From NCBI RefSeq assembly GCF_028649455.1, contig NZ_JAQSIO010000006.1, forward strand, positions 62,001 to 126,000: 64,000 nucleotides of DNA, read 5' to 3'. Origin of the DNA: Curvibacter microcysteis. Its GTDB lineage: Bacteria; Pseudomonadota; Gammaproteobacteria; Burkholderiales; Burkholderiaceae_C. Below are positions 20,169 to 23,821 of this stretch, piece by piece. Below the pieces are notes generated by a model. That model saw nothing but the letters and a program-made list of their open reading frames with translations, was not told the DNA's origin and did not search any database. Positions within the stretch are counted from its first letter, which is position 1. Each line of letters begins with the position of its first letter. The translations under genes and the position numbers were made by a program.

Positions 20169-23096
20169 TTATTTGAGGTGCTTGCCGACGATCCCAGCGA
20201 GCTCGAACATCGTGATCTGCGGCTTGCCAAACACCGGCAGCAGCTTGGCGTCGGCGTTGATGGCGCGCTTGTTGGCGCTGTCTTGCAGGCCGTTGGCCTT
20301 CACGTAGTCCCAGACCTTCTTGATCACCTCGGTGCGGGCCACGGCCTCACCACCGATGACGGCGGCGAGTTCGGTGCTTGGCGTCAGGCCGCTGCCCGGG
20401 GTGGTCTTGCGCGGGGCCTTGGGCGTTTTCACGGCGCTCTTGGCCGCGCTCTTGCCGGCAGCCTTCTTGGCCGCAGGCGCGGCCTTGGCGGCGGCCCCCG
20501 TGGCCGTCTTGCGCGGCGGGAACTTGCTGGCGCGCGGCTCGAACTCGAAGTTCACCTTGTTGGCCGTGGCGTCCCAGGCCAGGAAGGCCTTGAAGTTGCG
20601 GCGCGTGCGCATGCTGACGAACTTGTCGAGCAGGTCGGTCTTGCCGGTGCTCAGTAGCTTGTGCATCTGCTCGCGCTCCACCGGTTGCTGCAGGATGATC
20701 TTGCCGCTCTTGAAGTCGCAGCTGGGCGTGGGCTGTTCTGCGGTCGGCACCGAGTGGCTGCAGACGTAGTTGCTGCCGTGCTCGAACACGGCTGAGCCGC
20801 ATTTGGGGCAAGGGCCCAGGGATTCTTGCGCGCTGAAGTCCTGCAGCTCGCCGCTTTCTTCGCCGTCCTTGTCGTCACCGAAGTCGAACTCGAGCTTCCA
20901 GTTCTGGTCTTCTTCGCTGAAGTTGAGGCCGATCTCGGCGGTGAAGGGCCAGCCGGCCTTGGAGCGGAAGCCGTCCAGCGGACCGATCTTCTTGTCGCGC
21001 AGGAAGATCTCGGCTTCATCGGGCTCGAAGGTGCGGCCGGCCGGCGACTTGGTGAAGGAGAAGCCGCAGCCCTCGCTGTGACCGTCAGCGCCGGTGCAGC
21101 TGTAGCGGCGGTAGTTCTCTTTGACCACGCCCGCGCACTTGGGGCAAGGCGTGGACAGGGTGGCGTAGTCACCGGGCACGGTGTCGCGGTCGTACTCTTT
21201 GGCCTTTTTGACGATGTGCTCGGTCATGGCCGCGATCTGCTGCATGAAGTCTTCGCGGCTGAGCAGGCCTTTTTCCATTTGCGTGAGCTTGTACTCCCAC
21301 TCCCCGGTCAGCTCGGGGCGCGAGAGTTCTTCCACGCCCAGGCCGCGCAGCAGGGTCATGAGCTGGAAGGCCTTGGCGGTGGGGGTCATCTCCCGGCCTT
21401 CGCGCAGCATGTATTTCTCGAGGATCAGACCTTCGATGATGGCCGCGCGCGTGGCTGGCGTGCCCAAGCCCTTTTCCTGCATGGCTTCGCGCAGCTCTTC
21501 GTCTTCGACCATCTTGCCCGCGCCTTCCATGGCGCCCAGCAAGGTGGCTTCGGAGTAGCGTGCGGGCGGGCGGGTCTTCAGGCCCTTGGCGTCCACGCTC
21601 TCGGCCAGTGGCTTCTCGCCCGGCGCCACCGGCACCAGGTTCTGGCCCTTGTCACCGTCCTTGGCGTCGCTGACTTCGGCGGCGGCTTCCTTGCCGTAGA
21701 TGGCCAGCCAACCGGGCTTGACCAGCACCTTGCCCTCGGTCTTGAAGTGGTGTTCCTGCACTTGGCTGATGCGGGTCGTGACCTGGTATTCCGCGCTGGG
21801 GAAGAACACCGCCATGAAGCGGCGCACCACCAGGTCGTACAGCTTTTGCTCGGCGTCGCTCAGGCCGCTGGGGGCTTGCAGCGTCGGGATGATGGCAAAG
21901 TGATCACTGACCTTGGCGTTGTCGAAGATGCGCTTGGACGGCCGGATGTAGCCGTTGTTGAGCGCCGTCAGCGCGTGCGGCGCCAGGTGGCGCATGTCGC
22001 TGTCGGCCAGCATTTCGAAGGTCTGCTTGGCCACCGGCACATAGTCTTCGGGCAGGGCGCGCGAGTCGGTCCGGGGGTAGGTCAGGGCCTTGTGGCGTTC
22101 GTACAGGCTTTGCGCCAGGGCCAGCGTGGTCTTGGCGCTGAAGCCGAATTTGCCGTTGGCTTCGCGCTGCAGCGAGGTCAGGTCAAACAGCAGCGGCGAG
22201 GCCTGGGTGGTGGGCTTGCTCTCTTCGGTCACGCTGGCCGGGCGGCCGCGTGTGGCGTCGGCAATGGCCTGGGCCTGGGCCGCGCTCCAGACGCGATCGG
22301 CGCGCTTCTCGGCGTCTTCGGGGTCTTTCTTGTGCTTGGGGTCGAACCACTTGCCCGCGTACTCGCCGGCGGCGGCGCCGAAGCTGGCATGGATTTCCCA
22401 GTAGTCGCGGCTGACGAACTTGCGGATTTGCTCTTCGCGCTCCACCACCACGGCCAGCGTGGGGGTCTGCACCCGGCCCACGGTGGTCAGGAAGAAGCCG
22501 CCGTCGCGCGAGTTGAAGGCGGTCATGGCGCGGGTGCCGTTGATGCCCACCAGCCAGTCGGCCTCCGAGCGGCTGCGCGCGGCGCTGGCCAGGCCGGCCA
22601 TCTGCGCTTCGCTGCGCAGCTTGTCAAAGCCGTCGCGGATGGCCTGGGGCGTCATGGACTGCAGCCACAGGCGCTTCACGGGCTTGCCCAGGGACTGGTA
22701 CTGGCCGCCTTTTTGGCCGCCGGCATATTGCTCGATCAAGCGGAAGATCAGCTCCCCTTCGCGGCCCGCGTCACAGGCGTTGACGAGGTTGCTGACGTCC
22801 TTGCGCTTGGCCAGCTTGACCACGGCGTTGAGCCGGCTCTTGGTCTTGTCCACGGGCTTGAGGTCGAAGAAAGGCGGAATCACGGGCAGGTTGGCAAAGC
22901 TCCACTTGCCGCGTTTCACGTCGAATTGCTCGGGGGCCTGGATTTCCACCAGGTGGCCCACGGCGCTGGTCACCACAAAACGGTCGTTTTCGAAATGGTC
23001 GTCGTGCTTCTCGAACTTGCCTGCCGTCGGGGTGAGCGCCCGCACGATGTCCTGAGCCACCGAGGGTTTTTCAGCAATCACCAGAGTTTTTGTCAT
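20169..23096 (-). CDS. topB: DNA topoisomerase III with H1-like linker and C-terminal SWIB domain
   Basis: Type IA topoisomerase, 975 residues, that passes DNA strands and can resolve recombination or replication intermediates. Toprim domain from residue 1 (KTLVIAEKPSVAQDIVRAL, DAGREGE at 109-115). The catalytic Tyr340 is in LTYPRTDS and GRVQTPTLA is at 207-215. Two zinc-binding patches follow (CPKCAGVV...CTGADGHSEGC and CPKCGSAVFEHG...C). Residues about 859-903 are an Ala/Lys/Pro-rich stretch like a histone H1 tail. Residues 904-975 form a SWIB/MDM2-type domain (VARTEVIKKVWDYVKANGLQ ... LLPVFGKPQITMFELAGIVGKHLK). The start MTKTLVIAEK is chosen over a Met seven codons upstream. It is divergent from the SET gene. 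Confidence 0.95.
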   Translation of the reverse strand: MTKTLVIAEKPSVAQDIVRALTPTAGKFEKHDDHFENDRFVVTSAVGHLVEIQAPEQFDVKRGKWSFANLPVIPPFFDLKPVDKTKSRLNAVVKLAKRKDVSNLVNACDAGREGELIFRLIEQYAGGQKGGQYQSLGKPVKRLWLQSMTPQAIRDGFDKLRSEAQMAGLASAARSRSEADWLVGINGTRAMTAFNSRDGGFFLTTVGRVQTPTLAVVVEREEQIRKFVSRDYWEIHASFGAAAGEYAGKWFDPKHKKDPEDAEKRADRVWSAAQAQAIADATRGRPASVTEESKPTTQASPLLFDLTSLQREANGKFGFSAKTTLALAQSLYERHKALTYPRTDSRALPEDYVPVAKQTFEMLADSDMRHLAPHALTALNNGYIRPSKRIFDNAKVSDHFAIIPTLQAPSGLSDAEQKLYDLVVRRFMAVFFPSAEYQVTTRISQVQEHHFKTEGKVLVKPGWLAIYGKEAAAEVSDAKDGDKGQNLVPVAPGEKPLAESVDAKGLKTRPPARYSEATLLGAMEGAGKMVEDEELREAMQEKGLGTPATRAAIIEGLILEKYMLREGREMTPTAKAFQLMTLLRGLGVEELSRPELTGEWEYKLTQMEKGLLSREDFMQQIAAMTEHIVKKAKEYDRDTVPGDYATLSTPCPKCAGVVKENYRRYSCTGADGHSEGCGFSFTKSPAGRTFEPDEAEIFLRDKKIGPLDGFRSKAGWPFTAEIGLNFSEEDQNWKLEFDFGDDKDGEESGELQDFSAQESLGPCPKCGSAVFEHGSNYVCSHSVPTAEQPTPSCDFKSGKIILQQPVEREQMHKLLSTGKTDLLDKFVSMRTRRNFKAFLAWDATANKVNFEFEPRASKFPPRKTATGAAAKAAPAAKKAAGKSAAKSAVKTPKAPRKTTPGSGLTPSTELAAVIGGEAVARTEVIKKVWDYVKANGLQDSANKRAINADAKLLPVFGKPQITMFELAGIVGKHLK

Positions 23097-23162
23097 TTCA
23101 GCGTCTTCCCTTTTCAAGGTCCGGCCCGAGGCTGGTCTGCCAGCCTCCTACAATCCGGGTTT

Positions 23163-23204
23163 CGCGCGCACATGCACGCACACGTGCACGTGTATGCACG
23201 CGCA
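23163..23204. repeat. 42-bp strictly alternating pyrimidine-purine tract (Z-DNA-prone)
   Basis: Every base from 23163 to 23204 alternates pyrimidine and purine without a break, mostly as CG and CA/TG steps. It contains a 14-bp perfect palindrome, ACACGTGCACGTGT, at 23180-23193 and two copies of ATGCACG (23172-23178 and 23194-23200). It lies between divergent topB and SET starts. It has the composition expected to flip to Z-DNA under negative supercoiling; that behaviour is inferred. Confidence 0.85.
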
Positions 23205-23236
23205 GGTGCCCTTTCAAATTAACAGAGTTTTTGGTC

Positions 23237-23821
23237 ATGTCTGCAAAAGCCCCCGTGAATTCCGGTCGCCGCATTCAAACACGTCGCTCAGGCGTGCACG
23301 GCAGGGGCGTGTTTGCGGTGCAGGACATCGCCGAGGGCGAAACCGTGATCGAGTACGTGGGCGAAGTCATCACTTGGGATGAAGCCCAGGACCGCCACCC
23401 GCACGACCCGAACGACCCCAACCACACCTTCTATTTCCACGTCGATGAAGACCGGGTGATCGACGCGCTCAACGGGGGCAACTCCTCGCGATGGATCAAC
23501 CACAGCTGCGACCCCAATTGCATCGCTGACGAAGAAGACGGCCGCATCTTCATCAAGGCGCTGCGCAACATCTACGCGGGCGAAGAGCTGAACTACGACT
23601 ACGGCCTGATCATCGACGAGCGCTACACGCCCAAGCTCAAAGCCGAGTACCCCTGCTGGTGCGGCGCCGAGGCCTGCCGCGGCACCTTGCTGGCGCCCAA
23701 GCGGCGTCCCGCCACGCCCAAGATTCCGCCCCAGCGCAAGGCGCAGGCGGCGGGCAAGGCGGCCTCTCCGGCCCAGCCCCAGCGCTCGGCCCAGTCCCCG
23801 GCCAAGCCGGCCCGCCGCTGA
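23237..23821 (+). CDS. SET-domain protein lysine methyltransferase with basic C-terminal tail
   Basis: A 194-residue protein with a complete small SET domain, the fold of histone lysine methyltransferases. RRSGVHGRGVFAVQDIAEGETVIEYVGEVI opens the domain. RWINHSCDPNC at 85-95 is the AdoMet/pseudoknot motif, GEELNYDYG at 115-123 holds the catalytic Tyr, and the post-SET zinc site CWCGAEAC is at C140, C142, C147. Residues 153-194 are a Lys/Arg/Pro/Ala tail resembling a histone tail. Bacterial substrates of such proteins are mostly unknown; a basic DNA-binding protein is a reasonable guess. It is divergent from topB and is followed after 11 bases by birA, so it probably leads that transcript. The start MSAKAPVNSG follows the alternating tract. 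Confidence 0.9.
   Translation: MSAKAPVNSGRRIQTRRSGVHGRGVFAVQDIAEGETVIEYVGEVITWDEAQDRHPHDPNDPNHTFYFHVDEDRVIDALNGGNSSRWINHSCDPNCIADEEDGRIFIKALRNIYAGEELNYDYGLIIDERYTPKLKAEYPCWCGAEACRGTLLAPKRRPATPKIPPQRKAQAAGKAASPAQPQRSAQSPAKPARR

Follow-up and report, generated by a model that had tools for sequence, protein, structure and literature searches.

Why should the short gap between a topoisomerase gene and its divergent neighbor hold an unbroken purine-pyrimidine alternation, and is it the alternation or the sequence that is kept? We addressed this question in a 64,000-nt stretch of Curvibacter microcysteis DNA (hereafter, the window) and at the corresponding loci of related genomes.

The alternating tract and its neighborhood

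The tract lies in the 140-bp gap between divergent genes, topB and a gene for a SET-domain protein. A reading of the sequence alone had given these genes the same names, and their Pfam domains match; for the topB product these are Topoisom_bac, Toprim, Toprim_Crpt and a C-terminal SWIB domain. The features of the locus are as follows (coordinates within the window).

20169..23096, minus strand: topB, type IA topoisomerase (topo III) with a C-terminal SWIB domain (Pfam)
23128..23147, no strand: GAGGCTGG/CCAGCCTC, a perfect inverted repeat adjoining the SET -10 on its upstream side
23149..23154, plus strand: predicted SET -10 (TACAAT), 8 nt before the tract, conserved in relatives
23163..23204, no strand: uninterrupted alternating pyrimidine-purine tract of 42 bp (Y/R reading of the sequence)
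23180..23193, no strand: perfect 14-bp palindrome ACACGTGCACGTGT inside the tract (by reading)
23216..23224, minus strand: predicted extended topB -10 TGTTAATTT, 11 nt beyond the tract, conserved in relatives
23237..23821, plus strand: gene for the SET-domain protein, 194 aa (Pfam SET, PF00856)

The sequence-only reading had described 42 bp without a break and an internal 14-bp palindrome, and both are found at these positions. It had also called such a run extremely unlikely in random sequence, which a first-order Markov model of the window bears out: about 7e-8 runs of at least 42 nt are expected per window, and the second-longest Y/R runs in the 64 kb measure 14 nt. Across the 4.82-Mb Curvibacter assembly, three other sites contain an alternating run of 20, none exceeding about 22 nt (a ceiling set by the single forward match that each gave to a 20-nt run). 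As a long purine-pyrimidine alternation beyond chance, the tract has the sequence character of a Z-DNA element; it is not a microsatellite built of tandem copies of one short unit. The entire tract is a 78% complementary palindrome, and its 14-bp palindrome, inspected by eye, is not kept as sequence in relatives.

Several other details of the neighborhood were recorded. The inverted repeat (8-bp arms) differs between relatives, and several of them, by eye, carry a different yet self-complementary sequence at this position upstream of the SET -10. An identical 11-mer, CAGAGTTTTTG, occurs near both start codons (23082-23092 and 23223-23233, both on the plus strand). SWIB and SET domains are better known from chromatin proteins; here a SWIB/MDM2 domain in the topB product (the window's protein was examined) and an adjoining SET gene both occur beside a topoisomerase.

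Distribution and selection across the Comamonadaceae

Curvibacter belongs to the Comamonadaceae, the family to which the following counts refer. Of 60 relatives, 40 have a SET homologue (34/36 within the family and 6/24 from other families of the order); at E 1e-40 or better, so do 111 of 120 family genomes drawn at nearly one per genus. The panel of 120 family loci includes nine from the window's own genus, so it is not strictly one per genus, and some single genomes appear under two ids (e.g., L002/L056, L005/L057, L004/L058). topB divergently adjoins SET in 115 of these loci. The remaining five have no topB in the stretch examined: L049, L175 and L220 are second SET copies and L183 is the sole copy listed for its genome, with longest runs of 10-12, and the short stretch of L210 has a run of 17. 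The six SET homologues from other families showed neither topB in the stretch nor a run of 12 in the 300 nt upstream. A 221-bp query found no match in the plasmid collection. In two relatives from the genus Curvibacter (L003, 1-100; L004, near 1501), the 3′ end of SET contains a tandem 9-nt unit, and these repeats probably encode a lysine/alanine-rich tail of variable length.

An alternating run of at least 15 nt lies between the genes in 97 of the 115 topB-SET loci, of at least 20 in 75 and of at least 25 in 54, versus none of 215 flanking stretches of equal length at the same loci. Tract length in 101 family tracts, with phase breaks allowed, has a median of 35 bp and ranges from 18 to 73; breaks occur in several, the longest run being only 10 in L046 and 9 in L023. 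The longest intact runs of the panel are 56 nt (L213, where the run follows a TATAAT -10) and 53 nt (L176). Runs of such length also occur at other places: 54 of the 120 family genomes contain one of at least 26 somewhere. Among the matches listed, the SET locus has such a run in 13 of 16 genomes, and four sites are at other positions.

No run of 15 was found in 18 of the 115 loci, including three of the nine from the window's genus. The gene pair is kept without a clear tract in L007-L009 (the window's genus, genomes of 2.3-2.5 Mb), L137, L140, L146, L155, L190 and L212, although L137 may reflect a mis-set start and the anchors of L140 and L155 are uncertain. The sequence-only reading had counted relatives with the pair and without alternation against its own proposal; they exist as a minority (three of nine genus loci and about six others), whereas most loci keep the tract. 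We conclude that some lineages can do without the element.

The 101 tracts analyzed are the 115 loci minus nine without a tract and five same-genus loci. An earlier anchoring comprised 108 loci, with L023, L030 and L048 dropped (right anchor not found); omission of L007, L008, L009, L076 and L077 (no tract) and L131 (wrong anchor) left 102, which were thinned to 54.

Substitutions indicate what is conserved. In 38 close pairs the tract shows 98 transitions and 27 transversions, versus 1922/1908 in the flanks (p = 2e-10). With one duplicate pair removed, the ratio is 97/27 for the tract versus 175/244 for the intergenic flanks and 132/294 for fourfold sites; these pairs had been selected because their tracts are similar. 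With SET identity as the sole criterion, 30 pairs give 139/41 versus 54/162; in that set the aligner may phase the more diverged tracts, so that the tract-similarity set is the cleaner. Tract-core gaps in close pairs are even in 10 of 14 cases (2, 2, 2, 2, 4, 4, 8, 10, 10 and 16 nt), and the odd ones (1, 1, 1 and 3) come from edges or from a single poorly aligned pair; internal gaps in the SET-identity pairs are even in seven cases and odd in four. Against composition shuffles, alternation in the 54 thinned tracts reaches z-scores of 2.5 to 7.0. Tract GC is independent of locus GC (r = 0.015). Judged from these alignments and shuffles, alternation itself, rather than the letters, is shown to be under selection, at a position fixed relative to the SET -10. 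The comparison proposed by the sequence-only reading, of conserved alternation instead of conserved sequence, thus gave the outcome it anticipated. According to passages of PMC4060949, alternating RY patterns are generally suppressed in prokaryotes, betaproteobacteria included, which makes the retention of so long an alternation unusual.

Two other origins of the pattern were weighed. The tract could be an array of sites for an unspecified DNA-binding regulator, as some 6-mers exceed RY shuffles in the 96 tracts at least 24 nt long (GCGCAC in 82 versus 70, TGTGCA in 20 versus 4.6, TGTGTG in 16 versus 2.1). No 6-mer occurs in all tracts, however, and none exceeds 85 of 96; the commonest are close to RY-shuffle expectation, the clearly over-represented ones are confined to a minority, and transitions are freely accepted. 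We rejected a motif array for want of a universal k-mer, and consider a regulator array very improbable. Slightly less probable still is a neutral product of dinucleotide slippage, or a coding repeat. A 10-bp insertion separates the window's tract from that of its closest relative, there is a weak 12-bp tandem array (2.2 copies, score 38) and, within a generally weak autocorrelation across tracts, pyrimidine identity is raised at lag 2 (z 3.7), with a z of -2.7 for purines at lag 4. Yet slippage does not accord with a tract position that, across the sampled genera, is tied to the SET -10, with the rejection of transversions, or with a tract GC independent of that of the locus. None of the gap lengths 2, 4, 8, 10 and 16 nt is divisible by three, on which ground a coding leader peptide was rejected.

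Predicted promoters and the level of the constraint

The intergenic region contains TACAAT in 107 of the 115 topB-SET loci. In 99 of 101 tracts, 6-12 nt separate the SET -10 from the first alternating base, which therefore falls on the expected transcription start or slightly beyond it. At the other end, a topB -10-like element lies on the opposite strand, its TA 0-16 nt past the tract end in the 101 tracts; these distances lean towards the pattern because this right, topB-side anchor was located by pattern. The strict form TGnTAnnnT, on the minus strand and reading towards topB, is present in 51 of 101 tracts versus 6.9 expected; TAnnnT on that strand is present in 97 (a raw count). In many loci the SET -10 adjoins the topB start codon, which leaves the topB promoter to be expected at the tract itself or on its far side. 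Our scan of 23050-23300 found no intrinsic terminator (G+C stem followed by a T run) and no full sigma-70 consensus promoter; since this interval of the window offers no such consensus, we infer the promoters and start sites from the elements above.

In this prediction a rightward SET promoter and a leftward topB promoter face each other across the tract, in keeping with the shared promoter region suggested by the sequence-only reading. With predicted -10s on both sides, both predicted 5′ leaders would cross the tract and be mutually antisense. The two predicted starts, whose transcripts would overlap in antisense, recall known face-to-face (overlapping divergent) promoters; unlike in those, the overlap here would be filled by an alternation-constrained tract, and no repressor pair is evident.

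This arrangement raises an alternative at the RNA level. The tract would begin both 5′ UTRs, and alternation would build strong stem-loops near the 5′ ends of the SET and topB mRNAs, which could protect the mRNA or control translation, in leaders that are also mutually antisense. Folding is better than in composition shuffles in all 54 thinned tracts (mean z -2.7). A small excess persists over alternation-preserving shuffles, with z -0.55 (sem 0.10) in the SET sense and -0.31 (0.10) in the topB sense (n = 101), and the smallness of this residue indicates that alternation explains most of the folding excess. Steps inside predicted stems alternate in 96% of cases versus 75% for unpaired steps, a set that includes the tract ends, and some breaks in alternation are matched across the stem (GCGGGCGC/GCGCCCGC in L095). 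Folding was also scored at eight loci that lack a clear tract: the z-score is negative in 15 of 16 cases, and p < 0.05 against dinucleotide shuffles is reached at two of eight in the SET sense (L146, L190) and three of eight in the topB sense (L009, L146, L212).

However, the transition bias is equal at unpaired (56/17) and paired (41/10) sites, and, of the 41 transitions at paired sites, just 15 leave the pair intact (SET sense). Alternation also exceeds that of hairpin-preserving shuffles in 101 of 101 tracts (z of 2.4 or more, mean 3.9). Rfam gave no match near gathering score, the best reaching 25.5 bits versus a gathering score of 100. From the excess over hairpin-preserving shuffles and the equal bias at unpaired sites we rejected a hairpin as the sole constraint. 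A constraint on DNA is favored over one on RNA, and we regard an RNA-level element as unlikely, if still a serious competitor.

Selection on the RY pattern, and a tract within the predicted initially transcribed region of both genes, are also what a property of right-handed DNA would entail. A flexible YR step at every second position and the lack of purine clusters on either strand might ease promoter escape, create promoter-proximal pauses or prevent R-loops where two 5′ ends overlap, with no left-handed DNA involved. G-Y-G is a pause triplet motif, and alternation alone triples such triplets (423 versus 141 in composition shuffles). They are nevertheless rarer than in alternation-preserving shuffles (423 versus 472, sd 9), for which reason a pause-site array was rejected, and a strict run of 40-50 bp seems beyond the needs of such a role. 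We hold a B-form explanation to be improbable, though less so than a regulator array.

Calculated B-Z transition and a possible role in torsion

The dinucleotide and junction B-Z energies were those given in passages of PMC3024258. To these were added values for the helix repeats, a junction twist of 0.4 turn and a quadratic constant for supercoiling. The sequence-only reading had held that the composition favors Z-DNA under negative supercoiling, and the calculated cost is indeed low: in a 5-kb domain the tract has a critical sigma of -0.039, the lowest among the window tiles, by a slight margin over short GC runs elsewhere in this GC-rich window (-0.042 to -0.043). At sigma -0.05 and N = 5000 its calculated dG is -10.5 kcal/mol with 8.3 turns absorbed, versus -4.0 for the best other site of the window. 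Domain size matters to this ranking. In a 2-kb domain at sigma -0.05 the tract is not clearly best (-1.6 versus -1.2 kcal/mol elsewhere), and at sigma -0.04 another site does better (2.4 versus 3.6 kcal/mol). The calculated transition is favorable at physiological superhelicity for 5- and 10-kb domains, and the model shows the tract to be the window's most easily flipped site in domains of 5 kb or more.

At sigma -0.05, B-Z dG is below zero for 101 of 101 tracts versus 15 of 101 shuffled ones, and eight loci without a clear tract fall between -2.3 and +1.5. TA-step depletion (0.70) was seen and left unused as a Z signature, T-to-A steps being rare across the entire window.

The tract resembles the Z-DNA-forming alternating inserts of supercoiled plasmids treated in passages of PMC3024258 (SIBZ), being of the same sequence class and described by the same energies, and by calculation it flips at physiological negative supercoiling. 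Unlike those inserts, it is natural, sits at one chromosomal locus, is family-wide and lies at predicted starts, and in its case Z-DNA formation is a prediction from calculation. E. coli inverted repeats that form cruciforms (PMC6060812) share with this partly palindromic tract a possible supercoil-driven non-B structure, but the main constraint on the tract is RY alternation, not complementarity.

We tentatively propose, at somewhat less than even chances, that the tract is a conserved Z-prone and torsion-responsive cis-element between face-to-face promoters, controlling topB and SET. By our predictions it would span most of the interval between the two start sites. Divergent promoters are sites where negative supercoils accumulate, according to passages of PMC9458453. 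RNA polymerases departing in opposite directions would underwind the tract, which at a sigma of about -0.04 may flip to left-handed DNA and take up to about eight turns. The flip would store torsion, render both start regions unusable and block re-initiation until type IA topoisomerases relax the DNA, and the tract would thereby act as a torsional fuse that limits and couples transcription of topB and SET. The sequence-only reading had suggested a supercoiling-sensitive switch forming a homeostatic loop; a Z-flip at the topB start could repress topB instead of inducing it, which would make the response anti-homeostatic.

A stronger claim appears doubtful to us, namely that the tract is an inherited Z-DNA switch serving as a promoter element of the family, with selection preserving alternation at the shared topB/SET start region and local torsion directly gating the enzyme that removes torsion. 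Passages of PMC9458453 describe supercoiling-responsive promoters of the topoisomerase genes topA and gyrA/B, and the likeness is a topoisomerase gene with a possibly torsion-sensitive start region; unlike there, it is a Z-prone tract that would do the sensing here. The same passages report that topo I inhibition had no effect on topB in Dickeya.

Our search of the open-access literature (titles and abstract openings) found no description of such an element. To our knowledge, whether Z-DNA has an evolved role in bacteria is an old open question. Here, in many genera, purine-pyrimidine alternation is under selection in one place and beside a topoisomerase gene, and the tract offers a natural element with which to ask it.
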